Source of the DNA: Polytrichum commune
Taxonomy: Eukaryota; Streptophyta; Polytrichopsida; Polytrichales; Polytrichaceae
Length of the DNA stretch: 64,000 nt
Reading direction: 5' to 3'
Assembly: GCA_950295325.1 (NCBI GenBank)
Contig: OX485803.1
Location: 26,226,001 to 26,290,000 of the forward strand
Shown: piece after piece, positions 3,865 to 59,109 of the stretch
Position numbering within the stretch: the stretch's first letter is position 1
How the letters are laid out: every line of letters starts with the position of its first letter
The notes under the pieces: model-generated
The model's input: only the letters and a program-made list of their open reading frames with translations
What the model was told of the DNA's origin: nothing
Databases searched by the model: none
Made by a program: the position numbers and the translations under genes

Positions 3865-6817
3865 ATGGGTGCTCCTAAGCAGAAGTGGACGGCTGAAGAG
3901 GAGGCTGCTCTTCGGGCAGGAGTGGAGAAGTACGGACCTGGGAAATGGAGGGCAATTCAAAAGGATTCCAAGTTCGGTCCCTGTTTGACATCCAGATCGA
4001 ATGTCGACCTCAAGGTACGTAACTCCCTATGAAAATGTAACAGCAACAGCAGCAGGGTTGTCTTTTGTTTTAAGCGCAGTCCGTTGAAGTCAATTGGCAC
4101 AGTCTGCAGTTTCTTTGCTATTACCCTAGTAGTACCGGCAGTTACGGGATAGCAAAAGGATTACAGAAAGCCTAAGAAGAAGAAGAAGACCGCGTCACAT
4201 GATGATGTGATGATACTCTTCATCTTCTATATTCTCTTCTTACTATTACTATGTTTGTCTCTTCCTCCCTTCCTCTGTAGTATATAGGTCGAGATCGTGG
4301 CAATGAGATGGAAGGCAGGAACGATTCTTTACATCCTTTAAATTAGACCTTGCCCTGTAGGAAGTTCATCAGCTCTCCATAATAGGTTGTAGCAAGGTGG
4401 AATCACTCTACGTTTTGGCTCTCTTTATACGGAGGAGGAACTGAGCTGATGTATCCTGCCTTTTCACGTGTAAAAGGATGGTTGGTTATACACAATCAGG
4501 AAAACACCAACACAGACCTTCCACAAGGTATAATGGAAGTTTGTCCAAGTTGTAGACCTTTTAGCACCATAAACTGGGTTGTGGAGAATGACAAGTTCCT
4601 GTGTGGTTGTTGGCCTTGGTAGGACAAATGGCGGAACATGAGTGTAAGTGCCAATGGTATGGGGTCAGCAAGGGAGCGAGTGAGGCCGCTTGCGCTTCCT
4701 GCGTCAGGGATGTTGACCTTGATGGAGGATGCAGTATCTGTTGATCCTTTGACAATAATGACACCAGGACATGCAGCGTTTGAGGGTAAAAGGGATGGGG
4801 CTGATACATCATCAGATCGCAAGTCACTTGGCTCAAGGTAGGTTATAGTCTCAAGAGGTGTAATTCAATAAACTCCTGATGAAGAACTGTCCACCTTGTG
4901 TGACGGTTGCCTTTTTATGCGTAAAGCCCAAGAAGTGATATGCAAAGTATTTCCTTTCATTTAGGTCACAAAAAGGAAAGATGCAATTAAATCATGTAAT
5001 TTAATATATGGAGTTGCAAAATATGATAGTAGCATTGGCCAGTTGGTTATCTTAACCTGATTTTGGGTAAACAGCCAACCACAAATACATAATATGAGAT
5101 TGAGATGGAGTAGCAAAACATTTATTACATTATAGGCAACTATCGAAGAAGAATTTGGTAATTAAAGCAACTTTCTGTATTGTATAGCTTAAAATTCAAG
5201 TAATTCTTTTATGATTGACTCACAAGTTTATATGGCTTGACTTGAAAGCATTAGTGCCCTGCAAGTGGTGAAATCACATGCAGCTCCACATGTTGACAGT
5301 GTAGATGGGAATAATATTTGAGGAGTTTGAGGTTACATATCTTGCAGGGGAGTGAGTTTGACTTTGTGATGTGTTGTAGCAGGTATGATGACATGGTTTT
5401 GGAAGCTGTGGCGGGTTTGAAAGAACCTTATGGCTCTAGTACTGCCTCTATTGCCACCTACATTGAGGTATATAATTTTCTAATTTTTTTGGTAGTCTAT
5501 ACCAATTACCAACTGTCCAGGTTCTACTTCTTCCCCTCACGTGAGCCAGCCTTTCAAGAGTGTAAAACACTGATTTCTGGTAGAGTTAAATAATCATGAG
5601 GTCGGGATACAAGCGACTAAATCGGCATATGGGAAGGAATATCAAGATAAACATAACTTTAAATACATGAAGTCCTCACCGGATGGCTGACCAGTCATTT
5701 ATTGATTGTGATGCAGGAACGTCATCCGGTGCCCTCAAATTTTCGGAGGCTGTTGACCACTAAACTAAAGTCATTAGCTCTTTCAGGGAAATTAGTAAAG
5801 GTCAGTCTTGATAAAATTTTGAGTCCTAACCATACGAAAGGAGATTCACATCAAAATTTAAAATATAGCAGTTCTAGAGTGTCTTGTGAAAGAAGGACAA
5901 AATGGACAAACAACCGCTTTTCTGATTCATCTTGCAGAGTAGTTAAATAACACTTAATATCTTAAACATACTGAGCCAAGTTGTTGGTGGTTGTCCTTGC
6001 TTCTACATGGTGGATCAGTTTGTGAGTTTGCTCTCTTTTCTTTCCTTTTAAATCACATTTTTCTTCAACTAAGTGCTGTAAATTTCATCACAGGTTCGGC
6101 AAAACTACAAGATTAATGAAGGCAAGGAAAATCCACCAGCGGTAGTAGAGGAACCTGAAGAGAGGGAAAGGGAGTCTCCGGCTGTAGCCAGTGATGGCCG
6201 GCCACCAAAGGGATCCCGCCTAAGTCTCAGGCGGCATGAGGTTCACAGTGATGAAAGCAACAAACCACGCACGCCTCGCTTTCCACGGGATCCCCGAGAC
6301 CCTTCCAGGAAATTGAGGCCTGATGCGGTTCCTCATAAAAAGCCCAAAATGGACATTGAGCACATTGCTAAGGCCAGAGCCAAGACTGCTGAGGAGGCGG
6401 CTCGGGCAGCAGCTCGGGCAGCAGCTGTTGCTGTTGCAGAGGCTGAAGCTGCTGCTGCTGCAGCTGAAGCTGCAGCTCGCGAAGCAGAAGCTGCTGAAGC
6501 TGAGGCTGAAGCCCTGGAAGCTGCAGCTGAAGCAGCTGCAGCAGCAATCAGACCTCCAAAAAAATGTACTGAAATTCTTAGCACTACTGTCTTCTAACTA
6601 GAAGACACATTCAGTCCTTTGCAGTTTCTAGTAGGAGCAGCTATTGTTGGGTTTAGGGTGGTGCTGGGCAAGTCATTGCTTTTCTTGTTGTGAAGGTGGA
6701 TTTCCAAGAATATTTTCACCCTCATTTCTTAACTGCATGTTACTCATTAATTTTTGGTGTGGAATTGCAGCAGTAAGAACAGTGGCAATGGCGCACGAAG
6801 TTGCAGTAAACGGGTAG
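3865..6817 (+). CDS. TRB: Single-Myb-Histone / telomere repeat-binding factor (TRB/SMH), six exons
   Basis: Exons: 3865-4014, 4623-4837, 5383-5467, 5717-5800, 6094-6565, 6771-6817, with GT/AG borders and consistent phases, giving 1,053 nt and 350 residues. Start is the ATG of [13 protein letters not shown], the conserved TRB N terminus. Residues 5-57 form the telobox-type Myb domain with RSNVDLK and DKWRNM. Residues 123-180 form the H1/H5-like globular domain ([34 protein letters not shown]). Residues 268-332 are an extreme alanine/glutamate coiled-coil stretch encoded by GCA/GCT-rich DNA. TRB proteins bind telomeric repeats and telobox promoters in the nucleus and recruit Polycomb PRC2 and demethylase complexes in other plants. 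The last exon (15 residues) is the least certain part, supported only by phase and acceptor. If unspliced, the frame would run on to a stop at 6595-6597. Confidence 0.9.
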
Positions 6818-23200: not shown

Positions 23201-24676
23201 GGACATACATTGCGTGGTGTGGGAAGTGGTTTGAGATGATTGAGCACATGGCTGCCTCTGTTGCTTGGTCTGCAATTGTCACCGGACCTGTATAACAAAA
23301 AATTCCAGGGAATATTTCCACAAGATTTGGTTAACTGATGCAACAAATCCAAAGAATCGACTTAAGTTTCAACACACTGGAGACCAACCAAGAAGAAGCA
23401 TTCCACACAAACAAGAAATTTACAACTTTAATCTGGTCGCTTTGATCTTTATACAGTAGATGCACTCCACGAATTCGGTGGTAAATTAACACATCCCAAC
23501 AGCAAGTCCGAAGCGGACAAACTAATGCATGTCCGAGTCTCAGCTTGATTTTAGATCCAACAACATCATCACGTGTAAACAGACTTGATACCAACCGAAT
23601 GAAGCGTTCAACACACACATCACTACAACAATTAATTTTGCTCTCTTGCCAGATTTCGGTAAGAATAAGAACATCCCAACTTATGCATCAGGCTCGACTC
23701 GGATTCAACCACATCACAGGTAATTATACTTGAGACCAACAAAAGAAGCATTCCACACACACACAAGAAGTGCACAAATTTTATTTCGCTCTCGTGCAGG
23801 TGTTTGGTGAAAAATCCACACACCCCAACAACATCACAGGCACACATGCTCGAGACCAACCAAAAGAAGAAATCCACATAGACATGACTTACGCAAGTTT
23901 ACTGTGCTCTCTTGCTAGATTTTGGTGAAAAATCCACGCATCCCACCAAAAGTCCGCAGCGAACAAACTAATGCAACTCCCGAGTCTCAGATTGACCTCA
24001 GATTCAACAATATCACAGGTAAAACATACTTGACATCAACCAAAATTAGCATTCCGCACACACACATGAATTATACCAATTAATTTTGCTCTTGCCAGAT
24101 TTTGGTGAAAAATTAATACATCCCAACAGAACTCAGAGACCAAAAACGAATGCAACTCCGAGTCTCACCTTGACTTCAGATCCAACAACATCATATGTAA
24201 TCATACTTGGCACCAACCAAAAGAAGCATTCCATACACACACAAGAATTACACAAGTTTATTGTGCGCCTCTCTTGCAAGTTTTGGGTAGAAATCATTAA
24301 CATGTCCCAAGAAAAGTCCGAAGCAAACAATCAACCGATTCACCCCCCCAAAAAACAAAACAAAAAAAACAATACAGCTGAGGCCGACAACTTAGTTCGA
24401 CTTACTCTTGTCCTCCTTGTCGATGATTTGAAAGCCAGAGCGAAAGTACTTCATAATGATGCTCCTGGCAGCATCCGCCAGCTTGTGCCCAACATCGACA
24501 AACTCATCCATCCCACCATAATCAAGCTTCTCCTCCTCAACAGCCCCCGCCCCCGCCCCCGCACTACCACTCAACCCTCGAACTCCAAACCTCTCCTGCA
24601 CTGCTGCCACACTTCCAATTCCACTCCTCGCACTCCCCGCACTCCGCACAGCCGAAACCATGCGCCGAATCATCAT
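20285..24676 (-). CDS. HISN7: Histidinol-phosphate phosphatase, inositol-monophosphatase-like (HISN7/IMPL2), nine exons
   Basis: Exons in coding order: 24406-24676, 23209-23287, 22817-22911, 22412-22461, 21882-22009, 21586-21652, 21308-21397, 20918-21014, 20285-20379; all borders are GT/AG and phases agree, giving 972 nt and 323 residues. The enzyme dephosphorylates histidinol phosphate in plastidial histidine synthesis. Residues 1-45 are Ser/Ala/Gly/Arg-rich, as in a plastid transit peptide. Family motifs follow: FVDVGHKLADAAR, SPVTIADQ, IYGEE, the metal-binding DPIDGTKSF, GKPVFGTL, IIDQPVMGERW, YTTSPHLFSG, GCDCYAYGLLSAG, PYDYLALVPIVEGAGG and a terminal GVVAAGD. Order and spacing match Arabidopsis IMPL2 as I recall it. 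The start is the first ATG of two in tandem; a third lies five codons in. All catalytic motifs look intact. Intron 1 (1.1 kb) holds a tandem array. Confidence 0.93.
20440..20590 (-). repeat. Dispersed repeat copy, reverse orientation, just downstream of HISN7
   Basis: This is inside the gene span (final intron). The reverse complement carries the phrases 'tattgagtctagaatggtta' and 'tgtgtctttttagtgcccat' that recur at 36140 and 36785. Confidence 0.5.
21116..21131 (+). repeat. Poly-C run in HISN7 intron
   Basis: Sixteen consecutive C bases between exons at 20918-21014 and 21308-21397. Confidence 0.9.
23340..24330. repeat. Degenerate tandem array (~120-207-bp units) in HISN7 intron 1
   Basis: The phrase 'gaccaaccaaaagaagcatt' and variants recur at about 23383, 23590, 23735, 23855, 24035 and 24212. 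Around it recur 'ccacacacacacaagaa', 'gctctcttgccagattttgg', 'acatcccaaca' and 'acatcacaggtaa'. Six units fill nearly the whole intron between exon 2 and exon 1. Confidence 0.7.
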
Positions 24677-41028: not shown

Positions 41029-41456
41029 TTGTCGTGTAAATAGCGATCGTGTGTTATTGCAACTCGAGTACCAACCACCACTAACAAACAACACTAAAAC
41101 ATAGCAAAGTCACACATAAACAACACACCTCGACAGAAAAGGAAGAGAGTCAAACACTCATAAAAGCTCTAATCTCTCTTCAAATGCACACAATGAGTCA
41201 AGCTATATCTCACTTCACCATGGGAAAATCCAAGAGTGTAAGAAAGGGGAAAGAACTCAAGATTTATTGCAAATACATGCAATCTTCACCTCACACAAGC
41301 TCTCTCCACACACTCATTCACAAGACTTGACTTGGCAAGAATGCCAAGACAAGGAGGAGGGAGCCTTCCTCTCCACAACTAAGATTCATCCATCCAAATC
41401 TAGATGGATGAAACCCAACGGATAAGGTGCAGCCGTTGACGCCGCATACCGTGACA
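41029..41456. mobile_element. Solo LTR (428 bp), relative of the methyltransferase retrotransposon
   Basis: It begins TGTCGTGTAAA and ends ACCGTGACA, with ATGT on both sides (41025-41028 and 41457-41460). It shares 'gagtcaagctat-tctcact', 'gaatccaagagtg', 'caagacttgacttg' and 'cttcctctccaca' phrases with the LTR at 46491-47031, but is clearly diverged and shorter. No internal region is attached, so it is most simply a recombined solo LTR. Confidence 0.75.
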
Positions 41457-44400: not shown

Positions 44401-46486
44401 TGCTATCTAGAAAGTGAATGATAAACTAAGGAAAGTGGGATATGGATGTGCTCAAGCAAGTACCATTACACTAGCCAACATAGTCTACGTAAATTGCAGC
44501 AAGTGATCATCAGCACGGTGGCCTGAAGTGATGAGCTTTATTGGCTCTGTCTGTAGGACAGAGCCTATGCATCAACTTCTTCATTTCAAGAGCAAATTTC
44601 CTAACCACTTTGTGTTCACACTTGGACGTTACTTGTTCTTGTTATTTTTGGTCCATTTTATGTAATGTGGATGTTAACTATAGTTTATATATATATATAA
44701 GTGCTCCCTAAAATGCATTGAAAGAAATCTAGTTAACTATAATTATTTCGGTAGTTCTTGATTATTTATTTTAAAAAATTTGGGTGATAAATGAGTAGCT
44801 TCGATCCTCGACCTGTATTTGAGAAGAAGGTGCACAAAATCCAAGAAAGGTTTTGGTATAGTGAATAGCCATGAATTGGCATGAGCAAAGTGGACTACTA
44901 CAATTGTAGTCTTTCATAATAAAGGACAGAGCCTCACGGTTCTACCGTTTTCTTGTTAATTAGCACTAATGCAATAATAGTCCTAAGTACAAATTTAACG
45001 CACCAAGTTACATTTTCTGATGAGTTTGAGGACTTCCACAAGTTGTCTCATATCGATCTAAGTTATGCCAGTGCATAAAAAGGGTACTTGCCCTCAAAAA
45101 GTATCTCAATGGGGATATTTGGGTACATGGTCTGCAAGATCTTTTCTAACGTACGGTTTTCAGAGGGAATATGATAATAATGCAGCGTTGGGTTCCTACG
45201 CCGACAACAAGCCATAATTTAGGGCCACTTCACACATGAGACTGAGAGCCCGTGACCATTACACTTCAAGCACTCTCATTGGTGGAAGAGGCGGAGCCGG
45301 TCCAAGTTCGCTTCACACTAGGCTTGAGGGACCAACGGAGTAAGTGAATGCAAGACGGATGTAATGTCTACATGGATTCCTACATGGCATTGAATGGATC
45401 ACGTTTCATGGTCACTTGCATTATTTTCAAAAACCACCTCTTTGAGGTAGGTTTAACACAAAATTGGGAGACCATGGCATTCCAAATGCTCACAACCGTT
45501 GGTTTATTCTATTTTATCATGTGTGAGGACCCGCATGAATAGAAATTCATTGAAATAGCATTTGGTTGAGGGCCCGATCACATATGACTTCACATTACAC
45601 TTGAGGATCCATGACCACACTACATGATTTTGGAGGTGTCTTAAGATGGCCTTTGGACACTTTCTTTTGGGCTCTCACAATTTCATGGTCACGGCTCTTG
45701 GCTCAAGTCTGAAGTGGCCCTGGTTTTGAAAGAAAGCTTGAAGACTTGAGAGTTGCTTAAGAATGTTCAACTGACAGTGGAGGCTTAGTGATTCTATCAT
45801 ATTGGAACTCCAAATACTACATAGTTCCTTTGCAAGTGTAGGCCATGTTCGACCTCACTACATTGTTTATGGTATTTAGCATCATGTATATTATTTGCGA
45901 AGGGCTTAAACTAGATGCCTAGAGGTCTCATAGCATTGAAATGACTTAGAAAACTATATCAAATTATATAAAAATAAAAACAACCGAACATTTGGGTGAA
46001 GACCAAATTAAATAAAATGAAATGTAGGAAAAGTTGAGTTGCAAATTATTGTTAAAGATAACTTCACAATGTATATAATTTTTTTTGAAACGCCTATTTT
46101 TTAACCTTGTAGAGCATCTAATTTAAAAAGAATCATACGAGTAGATGCCTCCAAGTAAAATTAGAAGTCATTGGCAATTTTTTATTCATAATAAAAAATA
46201 TTGAAATATTATGAAAAAACTCAAAAAGTTGGGTAGTTTGGCCTATAGTACATGTATCAACAAAAATCATATAATTAAGCTATTATATGCTTCAAGGAAT
46301 ATTAATTTCTTATATATAATTACATTTTTGGATTCCTTGTTAGAAGGGCTACAAGAGTATCCTCCATTAAAACAAATTATATCACTAGATATTGGACTAA
46401 AATGCAAAATACGTGATTATAATTAGGGCCATATAATACGGGAGTTGCATACCCAAGGGATGATGTTGGTGGTTCTCATCTTCTTG
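41461..46486. other. Repeat-derived spacer, no gene supported
   Basis: Contains an ACACTAAATA/TATTTAGTGT palindrome near 42573-42600 and short AT runs. Frames are short and unrecognised. Confidence 0.4.
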
Positions 46487-46490
46487 ACAA

Positions 46491-47031
46491 TGTCGTGTAA
46501 ACTAAGATCGTTAAACACAACAGATCGAGTGTCGTCATCAACATCAATTAGCAAAATAAACATAGCAAACTAATATGCTAAACAACCACGTTGTCAAGTA
46601 TAAGGGTTTCTCTCTCCAAGCTCAAGAAACTAAGAAGTCTCCTTACAAAGCTTAAGAAACTCTAAAATTCACACACAAGAGTCAAGCTATCTCTCACTCT
46701 ACAAAGGGAGAATCCAAGAGTGCAAGTGATGGAGAAAGAATGCAAAGGCTTTACTCATGATCTACTACACCATAGCCATAAGATAGCAACAACAAGCTCT
46801 CTCTCTCTCAAAACACACTCACAAGACTTGACTTGACAACAATGGCAAGTCAAGATGCCTTCCTCTCCACATAACCCCAATCCTATGTGGATTTCATCCA
46901 TGGAGTGGATGAACAACTAACTAGGACTCCCAATGGAGTCCATAATCCATCCAAACACACATGGACTCCTAATGGAGTCCATTTACTCCTAATTTGACGT
47001 GACTTGGCCCCCGATGTCGCCTCACATGACA
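46491..47031 (-). repeat. Complete LTR (3' LTR in coding orientation), 541 bp
   Basis: Bounded by TGTCGTG and CATGACA. Positions 46590-47031 match 58664-59105 with three differences. Positions 46491-46589 match 47034-47132 exactly. Confidence 0.85.
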
Positions 47032-47033
47032 GC

Positions 47034-47132
47034 TGTCGTGTAAACTAAGATCGTTAAACACAACAGATCGAGTGTCGTCATCAACATCAATTAGCAAAAT
47101 AAACATAGCAAACTAATATGCTAAACAACCAC
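47034..47132 (-). repeat. Extra 99-bp copy of the LTR terminus, next to the complete LTR
   Basis: Identical over 99 bases to 46491-46589, and separated from the complete LTR only by the dinucleotide GC. The same 99 bases are missing from the right-hand LTR, whose remaining 442 bases begin at 58664. Confidence 0.9.
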
Positions 47133-47467
47133 CTCTTCAAGTGCCCCCCCCTAGCAGATAAGGAGCCCCTCCAATCGGCTAGGAACAAACACACTCATTG
47201 GTAGAGGTGTTGAACATGATGAAGTTGTTACTACATCTATACATATCCAATTGGATAGTGGTAATCTAAGGAATTAAATTCATGGTTGAGGAAGTAACCC
47301 AAGAACTGTAGGCTGGGTGCAATGTGAGCCCCATCTTTAATTGCCTTCAACAATTTATGTTGAATTCTTTGATAACTCTCCCAATGTGATTTTCAATCCC
47401 ATAAAACTTCCGACCAACTAGATAACAACTTCACCACTAAGACATGTGGCAAACATCCACAAAGTCC

Positions 47468-47938
47468 CTAATCATGACCATTAACGGCCATGGAGTGGGA
47501 GGCTTTCCGACAACGAAGACAAACCCAATTGCTAGAAGGAAGAGTAAAAAGGGGAGGTGTTAAACATGTCATGTGCCATCCACGTTGACAATGGTCGTAT
47601 AATAACATCGTTGCAGCTCCTTTATTCTCTCCACACACATAACAAGGCAGACCCTGTGGTACAATCGCCAACTCGGGATGTACAGAGCCGTCGATGGGAA
47701 GGTGACATGGAGCACAATTCTTTGAATGCTCACGACATTCCCGTCCATCCTTGCCTTCAAGCAATAATATACCACTTGGTAAAACATCTTTTACCCGCAA
47801 AATTGTGCACCCAGCCTTGACATCCAATGTCGTAGGCGCCTCCCGTTGCAAGTAAACATAATCCCCCTTAGAAAATCTACGAACCTGAGGTCGATAAGCT
47901 CCACTGCGGATCCGGGCATACCGTAATGTATCACGATG
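47468..47938 (-). pseudogene. Integrase C-terminal tail and PHD finger of the retroelement polyprotein
   Basis: After a short basic stretch (HRDTLRYARIRSGAYRPQ, just after the stop at 47939-47941) and a barrel-like segment (FSKGDYVYLQR ... ILRVKDVLPSGILLLEG), the tail encodes PCYVCGENKG, MLLYDHCQRGWHMTCLTPPL and WVCLRC. This is the Cys4-His-Cys3 pattern of a PHD finger, the fold that reads histone H3 tails. The third zinc-binding Cys of the usual LLCDxC is Tyr here. The final stop is the TAG at 47468-47470. Ty3 chromoviruses usually carry a chromodomain at this place; a PHD finger could play a similar targeting role, which is an inference. Confidence 0.75.
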
Positions 47939-48901
47939 TTAAGCTATGTTTAAGTTCTTCATGGCCATAGGCATGGCCTTTTGAAAGAATTCTGCTCGGT
48001 CATGAAGACATTGAGCCCAAACATCTGGATCATCCAAGTCTACTACAGGAGCCAATTTCTCTCGCACAGAGCTAGGTAAAATTGGTTCCCGTCCATACAA
48101 GAGTTGGTAAGGACTATAGGATGCCAAAGATGTTTGCCTGCTGAAACGGTAACCCATTGCTATCCATAGTAACATCAAGTCCCAATCGCGATGGTTGCCA
48201 TGAAACAACCCATACTTCCGCAAACCGCGCTTGACAATTTGAACAACTCGTTCAGCTAAGCCATCTGCCTCAGGGTGATCTCTGGAAGTTGTTCGATGAT
48301 CAATCAAAGCCTTAGTACACAAAGCCTCGAAAGATCCAAGAAATTCTCTCCCTTGATCCGTCAACACCTCTGCAGGTGTTCCAAACCGTGCCAAAACTCG
48401 ATCAAGAAATGCCATAGCCGCCAATTATGAGGAATTTTGGGGAAGAGCCACGAGTTCAATCCACTTACTAAAATGCTCCACCATCACAAGTACATACTTT
48501 GCCCCACGTGGAGTGATAGTAAGTGGTCCGGCAAAATCCAAAGACCAACGATATCCCAAACCCATAATAGGTAAAGGGTGAAGTTGAGGTGATAAACTAT
48601 TAAAACTTGACCTGACCCGGTCACATACTTCACACCTAGAAACATAAGTGGCAACCTGTTGATACATACCAGTCCACCAATATTAGTTGCGCAACATAGA
48701 GTGTGTCCTTCGCACTCCAAAATGTCCAAGCTCCTCGTGCACTTGCCGCACTAAAGAAGCTCTTTGATATGGCCTTAGAACGATGCGCCTCGTTCCGTTC
48801 GGCCACACATGAAATAACAAGCCGTTTGCCCAACGAAACCTTGTTATTCGATGGCTAACTCTATCTCGCTCCATAGCAGATAGTCCAAGAGGAAATATCC
48901 C
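47939..48901 (-). pseudogene. Integrase domain of the retroelement polyprotein
   Basis: An N-terminal zinc-binding HHCC module (HEELGHFG ... SRCEVCDR) is followed by the catalytic core: first Asp in WSLDFAGPL, second Asp in LTDQGREFLG, and Glu in HPEADGLAERVV. The spacing is that of Ty3/Gypsy integrases, which join element DNA to the host chromosome. In-frame stops lie at 48683-48685 (just before YWW), 48425-48427 and 47939-47941. The reading frame itself never shifts. The catalytic triad is intact. Confidence 0.85.
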
Positions 48902-49675
48902 TTATTGAAGTTTGTGCAAGACCGCATGGTCTTCCCATACATCACTAACAACGAGAGATTTATCAACCTCCTCATCTTGTTCTTCCACAATGATCTCAGT
49001 AGCCAATCCCGACATCATTGTAAGATATGTGGCAGCATGCCAACCCGGCACTGCCTCACGATCACAATCTCCATGCCACCTGGCTCCAGTTAAATCCTCA
49101 TTTGAAGGACTTGAATTGCGAGACAATCCGTCTGCATCCAATTTGGCAATTCCTGCTCGGTGAACAACTTCAAAGTCATATTCTTGAAGTAACAATGCCC
49201 ACCTAGCAAGTTTCCCGGTGAGTTTATCTGATTCCATAAGCCATTTTAAAGGCTGATGATCAGTCACCAAAGTAAATTTTTGCCCATACAAATAAGGTCG
49301 AAAATGTGCAATGGCCCAAACGGCCGCGAAGGCCTCGCCTTCATAAGAAGAATAATTAGATTCAGCATTATTATTGCTTCTAGATGCATAAACCACCACA
49401 TATTCCTTTCCCTCTTCATCTTTCTGTGTCAATACCGCTCCCAATCCCACTGCACTCCAATCCGTGTGCAATTGAAAAGCTCTAGACACATCCGGGCGTC
49501 GAAGCACTGGCGCTGAACCGAGCCTCTGCTTCAATGTATCAAATGCATGTTGTTGTTCCCGACTCCAAATCTATGGTTGGTATTTCCCCGTGAGAATGGT
49601 GAGAGGTTTGGCAATCAAACTAAAGTTTTTGACAAACCTTCTATAATAATTTGCCAATCCTAGAAATGCCCGAAG
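48902..49675 (-). pseudogene. RNase H domain of the retroelement polyprotein
   Basis: It begins with the RT-RNase H connection LRAFLGLANYYRRFVKNF. RNase H acidic residues are seen in FQLHTDWSAVGLGAVL, YEGEAFAAVWAI and LVTDHQPLKWLM, followed by LQEYDFEVVHRAG and ADGLSR. It would degrade the RNA strand during reverse transcription. In-frame stops are TAG at 49571-49573 (a Trp is expected here by family pattern, so TGG to TAG is plausible) and TAA at 48902-48904. Confidence 0.85.
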
Positions 49676-50611
49676 TCATGGTACATCACTAGGTGCGGGA
49701 ATTTTGTGCAAAGCATCCACCTTCGCCTGTTGCACACCAAGACCGCTAGGAACAATCATGTGGCCTAAATAGGGCAATCGATCATGGAAAAACTTACATT
49801 TGCCATGATGTAAACGGAGTCCCCACCGTTGTAGTCGTTCAAATACCGCTTGCAAATGTCTCACATGATCTTGTGGACTATTACTAAAGATGATAACATC
49901 ATCAATGTAACATCTAGCAAACGGTAAACCAGCCAATAATTGGTCCATCACCCGTTGAAATTCAGCTGGTGCATTCTTAAGACCGAATGGCAAAAATTTC
50001 CAATGATAAAGTTGATCCTTGCCATCTTTATCAATTGCCCAAAATACGGTCTTTACCCGATCACCCAACAACAAAGGTAATTGATGATAACCAGACCTCA
50101 AATCCAGAGTGCTGAAGATTCTAGCAAATCCCAGTGCATCAAACAACTCCTCTGGCATCGGCATTGGATATCGATCCGACTTGGTCTTGCGGTTGACTAG
50201 ACGATAATTACCACACATCCATTTTTCCGTCCAATTGCCAAAGATATATTTCTTTGAAGGCATAACCGTGGCACAAGCATACTCTCCATTGGAGAGTTCA
50301 ATCAATTCCGCTGCCAATAATTCTTGACATCGAGTTTGAACACCCAACCTTTCAGATGTACTAAGTCTGTACGGCCGTCTGAAAATATGATGGTCGTCCT
50401 CGAGTTGAATACGAACAGGTTTACCTTTATATCCTTCAAGATCATGAAGACTAAAGGCAAAACAATTACGGTAAGAGCGAATAAATGCCCGTACCTTTCG
50501 TGCTTCGACACCAGTAAGTTTTGGCCCCACTTCAATTGGCCAATCGTCAAACTCCGTAGTTTCCTTCTTCATAGAAGGATTGCCAGTTGGTGCCAGCACA
50601 ACTTGTGATTG
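49676..50611 (-). pseudogene. Reverse transcriptase domain of the retroelement polyprotein
   Basis: A 307-residue open stretch contains YRLSTSERLGVQ, the substrate loop of CGNYRLVNRKTKSDRYPMP, LDLRSGYHQLPL, FGLKNAPAEFQRVMD, the catalytic box CYIDDVIIFS and the thumb phrase KCKFFHDRLPYLGH. All catalytic Asp residues are present. It lies between the methyltransferase and RNase H in the same frame. Stops at 50612-50614 (TAG) and 49676-49678 (TGA) bound it. It is less damaged than its neighbours. Confidence 0.9.
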
Positions 50612-52092
50612 CTAGTCCGTGGAGAGGGCAACACCTTTGCCCCCATCATCTGTACTTGAATCCAAATGCGTATCCTCTCCACTACAATCAGTTTGTGTAG
50701 CTAAATAGCTACTCACATATGAAGTGTCACCAAGAAATAGAAGTGGAAACATTTTATGGGCCTCCAACTTCCCAAAATCTTGGGCCAAAGCTGAAAAAAC
50801 ACGTTGGGCTCGAAACTCTTCCGCAACCTGTTATTTCAAAGAAAATAATCCCTCGGTGTCATTGACCACCATGTGATCCTTGGATTGCGGCTCCATTATC
50901 CCCTGACCATTGTTCTCTGCCCTCAGAGGAAGCAATTGGTCATCCATACGTTGTTGAGCAGCAAGACAAATTCCAATTATCCCCACAATGCTATTGAGAT
51001 CCATAGCTTGTCCCAATAGGAAACGTCTCTGACCTTCCTGAAGCCCATGAACAGCCATGGTACCTGTAGGAAAACCCATGGCTCGTTCCCGCTCATCTGC
51101 CGTAGGCTCATCATGAATTTGGAATTTTGAATCCCAAACCATGCCTGGTCCACGAGATCGAAATGCAAAAGACTGTGGATATGTCACAAAAGTAGGTAGT
51201 GCACCTCTAGGAATTCCCACTTTGTTAATTAATGCAAATGACAAGGTGTCATCCTTAGTAACTGCCAAAGAAACACGATGAGCATCTAAAATGTTATTCA
51301 CCTTGCGATTCATAAGGCGGGGAATGCGGGCGATCGCCGCTGAAAGCACCTGAGGTGATACCAAATTGGTCCAAAACCAACGAGGCCGATGAGCAAAGGA
51401 TCCCAATGATGTAACATCCAGAAATGTTGGAGTACCCAGAATTTGGTTAATGTACTCACCATCCTTCACCACTTTGTGCCGTGTATCACCTAATAATGGC
51501 ACATTTTAAAAAATGTACCCTGGCGGAGTTGATTGGTGGGTAAACCACCATTGTGTTAATCGCCTCAAATCCGCGAACAAACTAGACCTAGGATCATCCA
51601 AACCCTGGCCAGTTCCTGCCTGTGAATGGCCTTGACAAGGCCATCCTGCAATAATTAAATCCACGTGGCCCAATCTTCTCAAATCCTCATCACTAATCAT
51701 AGTGACATCTTGAGGAAGTTGACCACAACATCAAATAATGGCAGAGGCTGACAATTCTGCGGGGTACCTCAACAACAATTATTGAATGTGGTGTCGGACG
51801 GCTCTGTTGGCTGCATATCCATTATCCACATGAATATATCGCCTAACTGTAATCCCAGCCTCCAACACTGCCGCCAAACCTGTGCCAATGCCCCCAAAGA
51901 TTTCTACAAGGACAATACCTTCAGGTGGTGGTTGCCAACGGAAGGGTTGAGCAAAAGAAACTGAGGATGACGTTGGAGGCGTCTCTCCAAGCCCCAAATC
52001 CGGTACAATATGTCGACAATGGTCGGATAACTTCTTAGGAGTACGCCATGGTGGATGTGAACCCTTTGAGTGGTCCACCACTCTGCGGGATC
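50612..52092 (-). pseudogene. C5 cytosine DNA methyltransferase domain (DNMT3-like) of the retroelement polyprotein
   Basis: One frame without shifts carries the C5-methyltransferase motifs in order: motif I LVEIFGGIGTGL (S-adenosylmethionine binding, 51880 region), motif IV VDLIIAGWPCQGHS with the catalytic Cys (51640 region), a stop at 51506-51508 exactly where motif VI ENV is expected (it reads stop-NVP), then ADERERAMGFPTGTM and motif X LLGQAMDLN (51000 region). The enzyme would methylate cytosine in DNA. The motif order, the short motif IV-VI spacing and the RERAMGFP phrase resemble DNMT3-type enzymes. Further stops are at 51779-51781, 51731-51733 and 50831-50833. The segment 50612-50830 links to RT. 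Start is not defined because the insertion abuts it. Confidence 0.88.
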
Positions 52093-52232
52093 ACTTTTAG
52101 TTAGAATGTTAGCATTAAAAGTTAGAATTGATAGGGAATTTAGGAAAAATTAGTTCATTTAGCATTTAGCCTAGAAGAAGGAAGGTCAAAATGAAACTAA
52201 GTAATGCTAGAAGATAGCAAAGTAGAAAAAAT

Positions 52233-52390
52233 ATGCTAGCTAGTAAAAACAACTAGCTAAGCAAATATTAGTAGATGCTAGCTATAAAGCAAATGTTAGT
52301 AGATGCTAGCTATTAAGCAAATGTTAGTAGATGCTAGCTATTAAGCAAATGTTAGTAAATGCTAGCTAAGCAAGTGTTAGTTTATTAGTT
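52233..52390 (+). repeat. 28-bp tandem repeat
   Basis: The unit 'gcaaatgttagtagatgcta' plus 'gctattaa' starts at 52261, 52289, 52317 and 52345, with partial units on both sides. Few differences between units. Confidence 0.85.
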
Positions 52391-52959
52391 AGTGTGAGGC
52401 ACACAAGACTATTGGAGGTGTTTTACGTAAGAAGATAAAATCGGCTTGAAGACTTTTGAAGACAAAAAAGAAAGAGAGCAAGGGGGCTACTTGCCCACTT
52501 GCCCCCTTGCCAACTCGATGGCGGAAAAATTAGAAAGATTTCTAAAGGTTTTTTGTCGGAGCCACCTCGGCGAGAGGGTGGCAACCTCAACCGGGAAAAC
52601 CCCCGAGCCAAAATTTCGGGAAAGGGTTTGAAAAATGGATCCGGTGGAGGAGGGGTCCAACCCTTTTGTGAGAGGGTTTAAAAACCCCTCCTTCCACCTT
52701 GTAGCTCTCTTTCTTTCTCTAGTTTTTGGGCGAAGCCCTGCTTCAATGTAGTTAGGAAAAAATCCTTTAGCATGTATTCTCAATGGTCTAAAAGAAAGGC
52801 TTGAGAACCTCCTCTACTCTCTCTCTCCTAGTTAGGTTGTGTGTTTATTAACACACCAACAAAATTATTCCTTCTTTTGTAGAGGTAGGTTGGATGGTAG
52901 AGTTTTGAGTAGAGGCATTATAGACCTCATCTGCCAATGCCCTGAAGGCTTAGTTCAAA

Positions 52960-53700
52960 AGCTAGAACAAGATACTTATCATTTTTCTCTTAGAGAGATT
53001 TCATATAGCTATCCATAGCCGTTTCCCATTTGTGATTTGGTTGAGATGACAATTAGTTATGGATTTTCAAAGATGGAGTAGAAAAAACTGGGTGGTCTTG
53101 TGGGTAGCGGCTGCTGGATCAGACCTGCGAGCCCAATAGGAATTTTAATTCCAAGAAATTATATTTTTTCCAAGTAGAACTTTTGTGTAGCTTTCCAAAA
53201 TGGCTTAGAACATTTGATTTGAGCATGATTTGAATTAGATATGAATTGTGCAAGATGGGACACATAGTTTGAGAACTTTTGGTTGACTGCTGCATTACAG
53301 AGGACCTGCTGGGTTCACTTCGGCTTACCTTTCTAATCACATATTTTTATCAAATACATCTTTTTAATATCTCTCCAGGGTCATATAGAACGTTTGATTT
53401 GACTAAGATTTGAATTAGATATGAATTGTTGAAGGCGAGATACATAGTTTAAGCCTTCTTGATTGACTGCTGTGTTACAAGGAGTCCGCTGAATTTCTAT
53501 TAGCTTAACCTGCTGATGTCATAATTTTTTCTAGTTAGAGCTTGTTCATAGCTTTCCAATGGTATAAGGAAAGCCTAGATCCAAGTAGTAAGGAATGTGC
53601 TATGAATTTTTGAAGTTAGAAGGTAGATAGGTGGGTTGGAAGGGTCGGTTGAATCGACCTCACACTTCCAACCCTCATAACTTTTGCATTTCTTATCCGA
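52960..53700 (+). repeat. ~181-bp tandem repeat, four diverged copies
   Basis: The phrase 'aattagatatgaattgt-gaag' or variants occurs at about 53051, 53233, 53413 and 53594, with spacings of 182, 180 and 181. Each unit also has a 'ctttccaaaatgg'-like phrase and a 'gactgctg...acctgctg'-like phrase. Confidence 0.7.
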
Positions 53701-54917
53701 TTAGAGTGATTTTTAGATCATTGGAAAGATAATTTGGTGCACTAAGTATAAATATTATGCTTAGGATTAAATTACAGGGCAGAATAACACTTTATATTTT
53801 AATTGTTAACTAAGGTACGCTTACTACCAAACTAGTTACAAAGAAGGAGGCAAGGTCGACGCTCGGAAAGTGGAGCAAGGAAGGAGGTAGCGGCTCGGCC
53901 TACATCAAGCCCAAATCAACCGAGGAAAATTGAGGTAAATTAACTAACCTTAAGCCTTCCATTTAGGATTGGAGGGAGCACGGCTAAGGTACGCATTTCT
54001 AAACCCACTCACCTATCTCGTAAGGTCAAGTGGCTTGACCACTTGACCGCCAAGGGAGTACCCAATTCCATTGTTTTCGGGGCCCTTGGTATGTTTTGTG
54101 GTAGTAGCTTCATTTATTAGCAAGTTTCGTGTGTGGTAAGTCGGATTAATCACCGACACGACCACTCTGAATGTTGTTGGTGGAAAGGTGGGGTTAATGA
54201 CCCGCGAATCCACTATTATGTTGTTGGCCCCATAGATTGGGAGTAATGGCCACAATTTATGAAGATTGCGCAACAGGTTGAACCTACAGGTCGCCCGTCA
54301 CCCTGGTCCCATTGAGTTGCATTTCGTGGTCTATCCAGTATAAACACATTTAACAATCAAAACATACCAAATAAATCGTAAACCCTTGTTGGCAAGAGAC
54401 CCGAGGTAAGGGGTGATGCCTAATATGTTAATGTAGTAAGTTAGGACGTGCAAACAAAAGTAAGTAATTAAGAAGGAATTTGTGTGAAGGGTGGGACTTA
54501 GGCCAAGTTCCCCCGCTTAGAAAACTAAATAGAACTAAATAAAGAAATAGGAAGAATTGAATGGTCCATCAAATTGTCGTTATTCCGTTCGTTGAGTTAG
54601 GGTGGTATGAGTTACACCCGGTTGGGTGTATCAGAACCATCCCAATTCACAAATTAGGATTGCCTTGGTTTCAAGGCTGGTGCGTCTGCGCGTAGAATAG
54701 GTTGTAGGTTAAGGTTAGAACTAGATATGAAATTGGTTAGTGGAGTTTAAAGCCACACTAGTAAAAAACTAAGGCCTAACCTCCGGAGGTACTACGACGC
54801 ATATTTAATCTCCCTTAAAAATCTAACTACTCACGTTATACACCTATCATCCGGGTTCGGCTTGGGCGCCTGCAAATGCAGGCCACCTTCACCGAAGGGC
54901 TTGTGTGATACTTTTAG

Positions 54918-56010
54918 GCTCCCTCGAAAGGGGGTGGCCCAAAAGTACCACAGTGGAGGTGGATCCTTGAAATGTCGAGCATGAATTTGTAAAGTTGGCA
55001 AAATTTGTTATTCTGCTGCATTACAAGCGTAGTCCAATGTTTCCTCCAACAAAACTGGGGCACAAGGCAAATCCGCAACTGAACCGCTACAACCAAACAT
55101 TGTCTCCGCAACCATAGTCATAGAAGTAGCTGCAAATGCTACAGGAATAAATACCTTCCTGCCATCTCCAGAAGACCATCCCTGTCTAATCCATGCCTCT
55201 TCAGTCCAGTTATCCAAACCAAAGCCAAGTGGATAAAGAGCTTGCTGACCAACAAGTATATCATAGTTGGTAGCATTAGTAACAACACACTTCATTGACA
55301 AATGAGTGTAGGTGGGTCCTGCCCCCACATTAAAAATCAAACGTAGAGGTGCCTTGGTGTAACCTGTTGCACGTTCAGTGCCCCCTACTGAAGTCACAAT
55401 TGTGAATGGACAAGGATCTAAGTTTGTTGGCGTCAATCCAAGACTGTCAGCAAGTCCTTTGCTAATCATAACCGGTTGAGCACCGGAATCCATCATAACT
55501 CTCAGTGGTGTAGCACGAATAGTAGGCATATCCGTGCGTGAAACGACAAACAAAAATTTGTCGTTCATCAACCGTACAACTCCAGGTTGCAAATTATGCC
55601 GCTCGCGAGCAGGCCTTGCAGAAATATCTGCAAGATATGCCGCTCCCGCTGCATAATTCGAAAAGGACGTGTCCATTGCTGAAATTGTTGATGGAGGAAT
55701 ATCAGTGTGCTTACCAAAAGCAATGATCGCTGCATCCGCAAGGCTCGCTCGCAAATTGGCTAAGTCCTCCACCTCCGCAGCCACATGTACGTCAACAACA
55801 GCTTGGGATACTTGAAGGGATGGCAAATCCGCCTTACCTTCTAACATTCTCCCAGCTAAATGGAAAACTCCAGCAGGCTTGAAATCCGGAGTCATCAACT
55901 CCGAACCCGAGAAAATTGGCATATGGAGAATTTTATATGCCAATGTCTGCATAATATCCTTCGAGATGGAATCCCCATCTCTCAAAAGGTACAGGGTTTT
56001 TAGCCCCAAC
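54918..56010 (-). pseudogene. Retroelement aspartic protease region
   Basis: A 334-residue open stretch (55008-56012) contains the retropepsin active site as RVMMDSGAQPVMISKGLAD and the downstream NYDILVGQQALYPLGF, the flap and second conserved region of Ty3/Gypsy proteases. This enzyme would cut the polyprotein. It is joined to gag by a frameshift near 55985. After the TAA at 55008-55010 the same frame continues for about 30 codons up to the insertion edge. Confidence 0.8.
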
Positions 56011-57578
56011 AACAGTGGTGTTTACCAATCCAATTGAGAGAGGTAAACGTGCTTGACCAACTTGATCCGCTGGTCCGGCATGGCGAGGATGTGACACCTC
56101 GTTGCTACCACCACTTGTAGAAGCCACCGCATTTGCCAATGTTTGTGATCGCGTAGAAGCCGCAGCCACCATCTCTCCAGATGCCCCAAACATATATATG
56201 TTTGACCCCGAGGTGCCACCACCTGCATGCGGCTCAGAAATTTGAGCAAAAGATGCAGAAGATTTGAGCTTTTGCTCAAGCTCTGCCACCTTAGCCTCAA
56301 GACTCTGCTCCCTTGGAGATTTTCCAGTGACATAACTGGCAGGCCGCATCTCAGGATGAAGTTGGAAACAATGATCCACATCGTGATTAGTGCCACCACA
56401 ATGGTTACATTTCAATTGTCTCTTCTTAGAATTGTCCCCTGCCTTTACTGGTTCTATCTTTTGTTTTAATTTTCCCAAAGGCTGAGTTTTCTTCTTCTTA
56501 GGACAATTGGGATCATTCTTCGAATGACCAGCTTCTCCACAACCCCAACAATGCAAAATCTTTTGTTCCTTAACGGGTTGAGTCTCAGCTAAACTACTAG
56601 TAGCTGTGACAATTCTTCTTGATTTCGTACTCTCTATCATCCAAGATACTATGTCTGTGACAGAGAGCCCGATCACATCTCTCAACCACGGCAAACGCTT
56701 GTGCAAGCGTAGCTCTGCCTTCGTAGTCGAGGATAATCCGAGGTGATGCCAACTCAAGTAGCCGCTTGTCAATCTTAGACAAAAAGATTTTGACAAGCTG
56801 ACTCTCAGCAAAAACACCTCCCGACTCAACAGCAAGACGTGCGAGTCGCGTATACATGGTCCGTGGAGTGTCATCCTTCTCTCGGCGGAAATCCTGAATG
56901 CGCTGCATCTGGTCTCGCCGAAATCCACCATACTCCACCTCCAAATGTGCGACAAATTCAGCAAGGGGATTAAATGGAGGTGGTGGACCAACAGCCGTCA
57001 ATGCTGCCTGTGTAGCACGTGCTACTGCCAGCCACTATTGGCCCAAGTGCCAGTTCTTTGTCCTTAGACTCCTCCGGCGATTCCTCCTCCTTTAAGGTGG
57101 GTGGAGCTAAGGTAGCAACCGCCCCATCTTTAAGGGCTGAAATAAGCTCAACCCGAGCCTCCCAATATTGCTCCACCTCCCGAAGTTGTCACTGATGACC
57201 CTCTGTCCAGCGTTCATAAGTTTGGAGTGCCTCATACTCCAAATGCTGAGGTAGAAGTTCAAAGGCATACCAATCATTGAAATTGGAAGACCTTTGACGT
57301 TTCTCCTTAATCCAGGTACGAAACCGGAGTTTCCAATCGGGCAAGTAAATGCCCCCGGCTTGACCTGAAAACCGATCACGCACTGAATTGTGGCGATCGT
57401 CCTCTATTTCGTCGAACGTGCCGACACTCCAAATCCGAAGCCTACTAGTAGTGTCCAACGCCGAAATAGGCTCAAAAGCCTCGTTGGTATCTACCTCTGG
57501 CTCAAGATTTGTGGTATGCACGTCCTCCAAGTAATCTGGTGATGGAGATCGATAATATCGGCTCCTAGTTTGCACCAT
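55985..57578 (-). pseudogene. Retroelement gag, broken by frameshifts
   Basis: The ATG at 57576-57578 opens MVQTRSRYYRSPSPDY, and the capsid-like core has WKLRFRTWIKEKRQR and WYAFELLPQHLEYEAL. A TGA at 57189-57191 follows, then QYWEARVELI. A frameshift near 57045 leads to PPFNPLAEFVAHLEVEYGG and YTRLARLAVESGG, the classic gag core. A second shift near 56620 leads to two zinc knuckles, CWGCGEAGHSKNDPNC and CNHCGGTNHDVDHC, that bind element RNA. A coiled segment (QSLEAKVAELEQKLKSS) follows. The start codon choice rests on the family-like N terminus. Confidence 0.8.
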
Positions 57579-58663
57579 AAAATAATCACTTGAGTTCCTG
57601 CAACTACCTACAAGGTAATGGCAACCTGCACCTGTTGCGGGCTATCTAAATGGCAATCCCTTGCCAAATGCCAAGTGTTTATTTATGCCCCCAGAATTCC
57701 AAAATTGTGCAAAGGTTTCGAGATTGGTAATTAAAATTAAAAAATCGGCGTTGAAAATGCTAATTTCCAAGGTAATTATGGACTCCAATCAACAAACTAA
57801 TTGCACCAATGGACTCCTAGGAAGATTTCACACAAATTAGGCTCAAATTTCACTCCGTTCGGAGTTAATTTGCTCCCAAAAACAAAAATCAGCGTTGAAA
57901 TTGCTAATTTCAGCAATGATTTTGAATTCCAATCAACAATCCAATTACACCATTGGATTCCTTGGCAAATTTCACACAAGATAGGCTCAAATTTCACTCC
58001 AATCGGAGCTAGTATGCCCCCAAATTTGAACCTCAAAGTTTGTGAGAAGTGAATGCCAAGTTTGAACGGTGAAAGTAAAAAAAAATTAAGTAAAAAATAA
58101 ATTAAAAAAATTAAAAAACCAAAACAAAAACCAAAAACCAAAAATTTAAAAAAAATCAAAAAATCAAAAGAAATGGGAGGGCTTACCTAGCCTGCCTGGC
58201 GCCCGCCCGCCCCCGTGGGCCCGGCATGCGCCCGCCCGCCCATGGGGCCCGGCCTACGCACGCCCGCCCGGCCCGGCTTGCGACCCGCCGCCCCTTGCAG
58301 AACCGGAGCTCCAGGAGGGTCCGGAGCTCAACAATTAAAAACAATTCGGATTTTTATTTTATTGTTGTTTTATTTTATTGTTATGTTTGTTTTAAAAGAA
58401 CAAAAATTAAACTTTGCTTCCACAATTTGCAAGCAAGAAAGATGTGACTTGAGATTCCATTTGGTCTCAAGATTCAACCATCAACAATTCAAGAAAACAC
58501 AAAGAGACACCAAAAGAGAAATGTGAAGATTTTTCTCAAAATCTTCTTGAGGGTTGCAAGGAATTGCAAACTAAGCTTTCATACACTTGTATCACTCATT
58601 TGCCCCCACTACTGGGCCCTTTTAGCTCAGAAATACAACCAAAAATGAAAAATAAGTGCCATT
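57579..58663 (-). other. Untranslated leader of the retroelement
   Basis: About 1.1 kb without a coherent frame lies between the right LTR and gag. It holds a two-copy 144-bp tandem repeat (57748-58022) and a very GC-rich island (58190-58330). No primer-binding site complementary to a common tRNA 3' end is evident next to the LTR. Confidence 0.6.
57748..58022 (-). repeat. 144-bp tandem duplication in the retroelement leader
   Basis: The phrases 'gcgttgaaa-tgctaattt', 'actccaatcaacaa', 'gatttcacacaaattaggct' and 'caaatttcactcc' occur twice, with units starting at 57748 and 57892. Confidence 0.8.
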
Positions 58664-59105
58664 GTTGTCAAGTATGAGGGTTTCTCTCTCCAAGCTCAAG
58701 AAACTAAGAAGTCTCCTTACAAAGCTTAAGAAACTCTAAAATTCACACACAAGAGTCAAGCTATCTCTCACTCCACAAAGGGAGAATCCAAGAGTGCAAG
58801 TGATGGAGAAAGAATGCAAAGGCTTTACTCATGATCTACTACACCATAGCCATAAGATAGCAACAACAAGCTCTCTCTCTCTCAAAACACACTCACAAGA
58901 CTTGACTTGACAACAATGGCAAGTCAAGATGCCTTCCTCTCCACATAACCCCAATCCTATGTGGATTTCATCCATGGAGTGGATGAACAACTAACTAGGA
59001 CTCCCAATGGAGTCCATAATCCATCCAAACACACATGGACTCCTAATGGAGTCCATTTACTCCTAATTTGACGTGACTTGGCCCCCGATGTCGCCTCACG
59101 TGACA
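58664..59105 (-). repeat. Truncated LTR (5' LTR in coding orientation), 442 bp
   Basis: Matches 46590-47031 except at 58676, 58774 and 59100. It lacks the first 99 bases of the complete LTR, which would adjoin the leader. It ends TGACA followed by ACAA. Confidence 0.85.
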
Positions 59106-59109
59106 ACAA

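Follow-up and report, generated by a model that had tools for sequence, protein, structure and literature searches.

A moss family of Ty3/gypsy-type retrotransposons with a predicted DNMT3-type methyltransferase, a PHD finger, a candidate leaky stop and split terminal repeats

Within a 64,000-nucleotide stretch of the Polytrichum commune genome (contig OX485803.1, positions 26,226,001 to 26,290,000; hereafter the window), we find what is, by its sequence, a decayed Ty3/gypsy-type element encoding a DNMT3-like cytosine methyltransferase and an integrase-linked PHD finger (Table 1). The element belongs to a large family, with at least 123 methyltransferase matches and at least 127 reverse transcriptase (RT) matches (127 scored of 1587 candidates). 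A moss-like host is also supported by the plastid genes psaA and psaB of the assembly, for which Physcomitrium patens entries rank highest in the PDB. The account that best explains the whole, and that we favor with moderate confidence, is that of a recently active moss family of Ty3/gypsy-type LTR retrotransposons that would make its methyltransferase at the level of Gag, prime its own reverse transcription, integrate from a circle and use its PHD finger for targeting. The most unusual features of the family are the candidate leaky stop, the split repeats and the putative self-primer, all of which an earlier note on this DNA had missed.

The limits previously proposed for the element, 46491 and 59105, proved exact. 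The earlier note had also described a single minus-strand frame from 52092 to 47468; matches to the methylase, RVT_1, RNase H, integrase core and PHD do lie in this order in one coding phase (52090-47468), but the frame is not open, and its 11 internal stops indicate that the window copy is dead. Profile searches of the kind the note proposed recovered both the DNA methylase and the PHD, the window methyltransferase being scored against PF00145 with its stops replaced by X. For the window protease, PF13650 scored above the Pfam cut-off and PF13975 below it. The window integrase core lies below the cut-off in a broken piece; in copy L021, H2C2 and rve (1.4e-13) both lie above it, and the PHD matches PF00628 at 2.4e-10. 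No Pfam Gag family matched the window element or the ORFs of the copy read. A segment of approximately 2.9 kb that separates the frame for protease from that for methyltransferase is missing in the single copy read across this region, and is probably a nested insertion. Rfam and tRNA scans of the 64-kb window returned no matches.

Table 1 Predicted features of the window element (positions within the window).
Feature	Position	Strand	Basis or remark
Integrated unit A1-int-B1-A2-B2	46491..59105	-	TGTC at 59105, GACA ending at 46491, TTGT flanking both
Target site duplication, 5' side	59106..59109		TTGT on minus strand
Target site duplication, 3' side	46487..46490		TTGT on minus strand
Repeat A1, 432 bp up to primer site	58674..59105	-	442-bp match to A2, 99.3%
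Putative self-primer segment in A1, likely mRNA 5' end	58905..58921	-	17-nt perfect complement of primer site
Primer binding site	58657..58673	-	directly 3' of A1
Gag region, CCHC-type knuckles, frame broken here	56022..57578 (approximate)	-	ORF pieces; open homologue in L094
Open frame with aspartic protease	55008..56021	-	PF13650 1.8e-5, PF13975 1.3e-5
Putative nested insertion, protease to methyltransferase frames	52091..55007 (ends approximate)		~2.9 kb, no strand; without counterpart in one copy read
28-bp tandem repeats	52230-52368		inside putative nested insertion
DNMT3-type cytosine methyltransferase, end of Gag-Pro-methyltransferase frame	50615..52090	-	PF00145 1.6e-10; four decay stops
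Conserved TAG-CAATCA (TAG-CARYYA, TMV-type leaky stop)	50606..50614	-	TAG itself at 50614-50612
Reverse transcriptase	49676..50611	-	PF00078 (RVT_1) 9.2e-30
RNase H	48902..49570	-	PF17917 9.8e-39
Integrase, zinc-binding part and core, stop-broken	47939..48901	-	rve 2.5e-5
PHD finger, integrase C-terminus	47510..47644	-	PF00628 5.5e-8
G-run, likely polypurine tract	47144..47151	-	same place in both subfamilies
Repeat B1	47034..47141	-	
Palindromic B1/A2 junction GACA-GC-TGTC	47028..47037	-	each half is one end of the integrated element
Repeat A2	46600..47031	-	
A2/B2 joint, imprecise	46589..46599	-	first 10 of 11 bases are the start of the primer site adjoining A1
Repeat B2	46491..46588	-	

Copies of the family have the repeat order A-int-B-A-B (long form) or, more rarely, A-int-B (short form). 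Target duplications of 4 bp flank all 20 readable copies (22 were tried; 17 long, 3 short), and short forms with such duplications occur in both subfamilies. No complete, identical LTR lies at both ends of the unit: A is common to both ends and B is found at the 3' side only. A canonical LTR pair consisting of A alone was rejected because B2 lies inside the target duplications. Of the 16 long copies of subfamily I, 13 have an A2/B2 joint identical to the pair of cDNA ends expected; the joint is imprecise in the window copy and in L027, L065 and L023, the extra bases of the window copy being primer-site bases. B2 could alternatively persist by templating in a DIRS-like copying scheme.

Within A lies a segment complementary to the primer site, over 13-17 nt in all 10 copies whose primer site could be read; in 2000 base shuffles of one copy, the longest complement was 12 nt, reached once. 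This pairing, together with two compensatory changes in it between the subfamilies, suggests that the element primes its own reverse transcription. In particular, the 5' end of the mRNA would fold onto the primer site and reverse transcription would begin there, as in Tf1/sushi elements.

The layout of the repeats suggests, in addition, that the element may insert itself from a circle. Linear cDNA would have B-A at each end, the joining of these ends would produce the A2/B2 joint, and integrase would cut whichever palindromic B/A junction lies closest to the joint to give A-int-B-A-B, while a one-LTR circle would give the short form. Such a model also predicts a mirror form, A-B-A-int-B, found in none of the 20 readable copies, so that an extra assumption (the cut nearest the joint) is needed. 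A fuller proposal, which we put forward only tentatively, is that circular DNA is the normal route of integration: the ends of the linear cDNA would be passed over and an att-like palindromic junction within the terminal repeat cut, the Gag-level DNMT3 would methylate the newly made DNA while it is still inside the particle and not yet integrated, and the PHD finger would pick the target chromatin. For retroviruses, integration from circular cDNA has long counted as a dead end; should the circle model be correct here, the split repeats with their exact 4-bp duplications, the short forms and the A/B junctions made by end joining would together represent a natural case of it.

It is possible, if doubtful, that the long form is instead copied in the manner of DIRS/PAT elements, with B2 templated from RNA, the cDNA ends left unjoined and the integrase using the outer TGTC and GACA. 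Such copying would be in keeping with a repeat order identical to that of DIRS/PAT, with a long form that occurs in one orientation only and with a joint that is usually identical. It is harder to reconcile with the four imprecise joints (that of the window built from primer-site bases), with target-duplicated short forms in both subfamilies, and with a DDE-type integrase, a tyrosine recombinase having no match in the two ORFs scanned.

Between the methyltransferase and the polymerase, all 21 copies examined carry TAG-CARYYA, which reads CAATCA after the TAG in subfamily I and CAATTA or CAGTTA in subfamily II, so that the variants remain within the CARYYA motif. Because TAG stands at this point in every copy examined, the TAG at 50614-50612, one of the 11 internal stops of the window frame, is not a product of decay, and a single continuous ORF for the methyltransferase and RT was rejected. 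In one copy (L094/L021), a single ORF of 1365 codons spans Gag, protease and methyltransferase; it contains CCHC and DSG motifs and is in phase with the methyltransferase stop. Frames of similar length occur in many other listed copies. On the reading of that copy, the predicted methyltransferase closes the Gag-Pro ORF, and RT, RNase H, integrase and PHD make up a second predicted ORF after the stop. A UAG-CARYYA leaky stop is the readthrough signature of tobacco mosaic virus (TMV) and of SIRE1. The moss element has it in common with both, conserved between two in-phase ORFs (a TMV-type assignment by motif), but here it separates Gag-Pro-methyltransferase from Pol. Most ribosomes would end after the methyltransferase, with polymerase arising from occasional readthrough; the methyltransferase would thus be as abundant as Gag and enter every particle. 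The layout suggests an enzyme made together with the particle proteins.

The earlier note had placed the methyltransferase in one polyprotein with RT, integrase and PHD, and had inferred that methyltransferase and PHD finger could act as a writer-reader pair on the chromatin around the insertion. We consider this model unlikely: both domains are present, retained and, as set out below, under purifying selection between subfamilies, and a readthrough product would still hold the two, but the leaky stop assigns them to different ORFs and so to different proteins, presumably in different amounts, the methyltransferase with Gag and the PHD finger with integrase.

In a profile search against the PDB, the 29 best matches to the methyltransferase were all DNMT3A, DNMT3B or DNMT3C, followed by DRM at 1e-6. 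Six aligned open frames have the linear motif order I-IV-VI-VIII-X, as expected of DNMT3, and lack the rearranged order of DRM. The sole NCBIfam match was to the superfamily model TIGR00675 and scored under the cut-off, and an AlphaFold model of the methyltransferase was unusable (pLDDT 33.6). According to PMC6453930, plant DNMT3 has a C-terminal DUF3444; this domain had no match in the methyltransferase regions scanned. Of 20 copies, 18 contain GWPCQGHS and 19 contain FENVP, and the catalytic motifs PCQ and ENV are invariant in the six aligned open frames, a sample of 6 of 20 copies that leaves out L016, L018 and L012 and is biased to intact copies. Between subfamilies, and with synonymous sites near or at saturation, dN/dS is 0.16-0.21 for the methyltransferase, 0.08-0.09 for the PHD-containing tail and 0.05-0.07 for RT, values that place the methyltransferase and PHD under purifying selection.

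Both domains are also widely retained. For at least 51 of the 127 listed RT matches, a methyltransferase match lies as far away as expected; when 20 of the remaining 76 were sampled evenly, 19 carried the methyltransferase (L082 only partly), which was not found in L079. The PHD region is present in 18 of 20 copies (not found in L010 and L012). The first 20 copies examined were the best methyltransferase matches and hence a biased sample, which the even sample of RT matches offsets. Among the copies examined, those lacking either domain, which by the earlier note would have told against the arrangement, are thus the exception.

This retention, the invariant catalytic motifs and the between-subfamily dN/dS argue against the improbable case that the methyltransferase is a captured passenger, without a present role and kept solely by being in frame with Gag-Pro. 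Some observations do fit a passenger: RT evolves about three times more slowly than the methyltransferase, the dN/dS of the latter within subfamilies is 0.24-0.70, and CpG is not depleted (observed/expected 0.68 in the element versus 0.41 in the rest of the window, coding and non-coding DNA not being strictly comparable), which gives no support to heavy self-methylation. On our favored account, the most likely substrate of the enzyme would be the cDNA or circle inside the particle, or else the newly inserted copy, and the PHD finger, in the place of the chromovirus chromodomain, would guide integrase towards chromatin whose H3 tail is in a particular state, probably unmodified.

That assembly, or one chance insertion, joined a host methyltransferase or PHD gene to a retrotransposon is so improbable that we reject it, since dispersed copies on seven large contigs, in two diverged subfamilies, share one domain order, a recurrence beyond chance. 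Gag-Pro is followed by RT, RNase H and integrase, and the Ty3/gypsy class is assigned by this order. The identity of A1 and A2 is 97.5-100% in eight copies. No relatives were confirmed in IMG/VR.

We propose that a type of enzyme used by the host for silencing serves here as a near-structural particle protein. Why a transposon would methylate itself becomes a testable question in a plant whose cultivation may be simple.

Literature searches on PHD fingers in LTR elements, split repeats in Gypsy elements, readthrough and mosses found nothing on this combination. The statement in the earlier note that methyltransferase-carrying retroelements are reported from dinoflagellates and charophytes was correct (PMC5890265), and the present family is a new variant, a Gypsy-Dnmt3 element with DIRS-like repeats being known earlier from Klebsormidium (PMC5890265). 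As described there, KnitGypsy-Dnmt3 of Klebsormidium nitens is an LTR Gypsy element whose methyltransferase is of the Dnmt3 type, unrearranged and subject to purifying selection (de Mendoza et al. 2018, PMC5890265), and the Fig. 4 legend gives its repeats as DIRS-arranged and its domains as Gypsy. By these descriptions, both elements have Dnmt3 inside a Gypsy-type coding region and a DIRS-like repeat order. However, Dnmt3 of KnitGypsy-Dnmt3 is reported as part of the Pol ORF, whereas that of the moss element lies at the end of the Gag-Pro ORF, before the leaky stop; the hosts are a charophyte alga and a moss, respectively; and the term PHD is absent from the main text of that paper. The likeness raises the question of whether streptophytes have long carried elements of this kind. 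The same source describes SymbioDIRS-Dnmt3 and SymbioLINE-Dnmt of Symbiodinium as retroelements with cytosine methyltransferases (PMC5890265); these are a DIRS with tyrosine recombinase and a LINE, and, unlike the moss element, are without a DDE integrase.

Tf1/sushi and the plant Tcn1 lineage, the latter in mosses and club-mosses, are self-priming Ty3/gypsy elements according to a survey (PMC6317226) whose main text contains neither "methyltransferase" nor "PHD". Both belong to the chromovirus lineage, and the moss element, with its primer-site complement in A, may resemble them in self-priming. Like chromoviruses, the moss element has a chromatin-reader domain at the integrase C-terminus; in contrast to them, this is a PHD finger, a chromodomain having no match at E 0.01 in copy L021. 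With DIRS/PAT the moss element shares the split order A-int-B-A-B, but DIRS elements have a tyrosine recombinase and no target duplication, whereas the moss element has a DDE-type integrase (rve, with no recombinase match, in one copy) and, in all 20 copies that could be read, target duplications of 4 bp.

Both the DNA methylase and the PHD domain of the retrotransposon in the window were recovered by Pfam profiles, run piecewise over the minus-strand phase 52090-47468, and the limits of the element that the earlier note had drawn, 46491-59105, proved to be the ends of the inserted unit. The further proposal that methyltransferase (MT), RT, RNase H, integrase and PHD finger share one minus-strand frame held in that all five lie in a single phase of 1541 codons with no frameshift, but 11 internal stops interrupt it. 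We also noted 28-bp tandem repeats at 52230-52368, inside a stretch of ~2.9 kb that is probably a nested insertion, as well as several diverged, overlapping direct repeats (75-82%) at 23467-24330 and, at 6082-6597 on the plus strand, an Ala/Glu-rich open frame of 171 residues that may be a host-gene exon.

Features of the window copy of the element
Feature	Position	Strand	E value or identity
DNA_methylase	within 52090-47468	minus	1.6e-10
RVT_1	within 52090-47468	minus	9.2e-30
RNase H	within 52090-47468	minus	9.8e-39
rve	within 52090-47468	minus	2.5e-5
PHD	within 52090-47468	minus	5.5e-8
Protease	55008-56021		
Repeat A	58664-59105 = 46590-47031		99.3%
Repeat B	47027-47142 = 46485-46599		95.7%

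Other copies, on which the earlier note had made its reading depend, are numerous in the assembly (407,808,757 bases in 64 contigs, 7 of them large), in which the window occupies G000:C1:26226001-26290000. A genome search with PF00145 returned 353 candidates and at least 123 matches, all 123 scored lying above the cut-off and on contigs C1-C7; with the RT of the window as query there were 1587 candidates, the best 127 of which were scored, at 84% identity or more. Among these 127 listed RT matches, 25 lie in stop-free frames of 1047-1048 codons, and at least 51 have an MT match 0.6-1.6 kb upstream. The MT was found at that place in 19 of 20 copies sampled from the other 76, in pieces read to about residue 320; L082 in this sample has residues 181-320 only, and L079 showed no MT at the expected place. 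Contig C8 (146,561 bp) bears plastid genes, and the best PDB matches of its psaB were 8htu, 6l35/7xqp and 7ksq/7kux (1704.7-1700.6 bits), which we take to be Physcomitrium patens, followed by 9lut (1667.2 bits) and 7wfd (1630.3 bits), the last presumably Arabidopsis; psaA gave the identical ranking. The host is thus likely to be a moss. Slices from the small contigs C10 and C11 (loci L042 and L043) showed 62-64% GC, perhaps a sign of bacterial contamination in the assembly.

Read around the polymerase, the 20 copies with the best PF00145 matches (L009-L028) split into two subfamilies: I, to which the window copy also belongs, with 11 of them, and II, with the other 9. Compared with the window, subfamily II is ~83% identical in the RT and ~55% in the MT, which is thus far more diverged between subfamilies. 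One subfamily II copy, L019 (G000:C1:26299417-26299650), lies near the window copy, ~9 kb past the window end, and L023 (subfamily II) and L027 (subfamily I) stand head to head (G000:C2:55.017-55.033 Mb).

The best PDB matches of the METHYLTRANSFERASE profile, made from six open copies, were 29 DNMT3A/B/C chains (1.1e-12 to 5.5e-10), ahead of a DRM at 1e-6 and then bacterial enzymes; the motif order is linear, unlike that of DRM. GWPCQGHS is present in 18 of the 20 copies and FENVP in 19. Between subfamilies, dN/dS was 0.16-0.21 for the MT, 0.05-0.07 for the RT and 0.08-0.09 for the PHD-containing tail, ratios that are rough because synonymous divergence is high (1.5-2.3) or, for RNase H and integrase, saturated (infinite); inside subfamilies the MT gave 0.24-0.70. 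CpG observed/expected, 0.68 in the window pol and 0.60-0.73 in ten copies versus 0.41 in window positions 1-46000, showed no sign of extra deamination.

The PHD finger is present in 18 of the 20 copies (L010 and L012 are without it); the zinc-ligand pattern is complete in 13, two of them with an internal stop. With an acidic residue in LLCDQC and no tryptophan where the H3K4me3 cage would be, the finger may, by the general properties of this domain type, recognise unmodified H3K4.

In the window and in 20 loci alike, the RT is preceded by a TAG stop with CARYYA directly downstream of it (CAATCA in subfamily I; CAATTA or CAGTTA in subfamily II), and UAG-CARYYA is the readthrough context of tobacco mosaic virus. 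At the copy L094/L021, a first ORF, 1365 codons long, begins at ATG, encodes CCHC-type knuckles, a DSG protease site and the MT, and ends at the conserved TAG; Pfam placed its protease just below the cut-off (7.8e-5) and matched no Gag family. RT, RNase H, integrase (H2C2 and core) and PHD (2.4e-10) are encoded by a second ORF of 1047 codons, which gave no chromodomain match at E 0.01. With Gag, protease and MT in one ORF ended by TAG and the remainder in a second, the MT falls on the Gag side, and we infer from this layout that it would be produced at the Gag level.

The terminal repeat is split into two parts, A and B, which flank the internal region (int) in the order A-int-B-A-B in the window. 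B-A-B is found at the 3' end of 7 of 11 subfamily I and 6 of 9 subfamily II copies; this end stops at B1 in L018 and L021 and is an inverted A in L014, while four of the 20 (L009, L010, L012, L019) showed no 3' repeats. In L014, a partial A and an inverted A ending TGACA occupy B2's place (5899-6263, oriented), possibly by aberrant integration. When both ends were sought in 22 copies including the window, the 5' end fell outside the stretch in L011 and L071; all 20 remaining copies, read by eye, have a perfect 4-bp duplication outside TGTC (A1) and GACA (B). Seventeen are A-int-B-A-B, three (L018, L021, L067) are A-int-B, and none is the mirror form A-B-A-int-B. Most copies have GACA-GC-TGTC at their inner B/A junction, and L015 departs from it by one change; the two ends of the element are thus halves of its own inner palindrome. 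Bases 58739-58814 of A1 also match 41182-41255, 17 kb away (76 bp, 83%), possibly an old fragment or simple sequence.

Directly 3' of A1 lies the primer site, ACTTGACAACAAT in subfamily I and ACTTGGCAAGAATGC in subfamily II, which in all 10 copies whose site could be read is a perfect complement, 13-17 nt long, of a stretch within A (position 185-190; 124 in subfamily II); L036, which ends before the site, and the unusable L038 were left out of this count. Two primer-site positions differ between subfamilies, with a compensatory change at both, and in 2000 simple base shuffles of A from one copy the longest complement was 12, reached once. The A2/B2 joint reads exactly ...CCCTCAT/CTTGAAGAGG... 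in 13 of 16 long copies of subfamily I, joining the base that precedes the primer site to the base that follows the G-run; L027, L065 and the window deviate, the window copy retaining bases identical to the primer site. In subfamily II, 6 of 7 copies share one joint, and L023 deviates. L055 carries a 130-bp duplication of the A2 end ahead of an exact joint.

In the simplest reading of these repeat forms, an mRNA running from inside A1 to inside A2 would be self-primed to give a linear cDNA, B-A-int-B-A, whose joined ends would form the A/B joint of a two-LTR circle; a cut at the B/A junction that lies 110 bp away from this joint would yield A-int-B-A-B, and a cut one-LTR circle A-int-B. The missing mirror form (17 to 0), which argues against a free choice between two B/A junctions, is the weak point of this route. 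Alternatively, a DIRS-like copying scheme may yield the long form.

Our search of open-licence papers found no land-plant case and no combination of PHD finger and methyltransferase. Methyltransferase-bearing transposons of this kind are stated to be missing from land plants (PMC6338049), and streptophytes and dinoflagellates are again named as hosts (PMC12344493). Self-priming is reported in Tcn1 and TAR (PMC6317226), and KnitGypsy-Dnmt3 of a charophyte alga is described with DIRS-like repeats (de Mendoza et al. 2018, PMC5890265).
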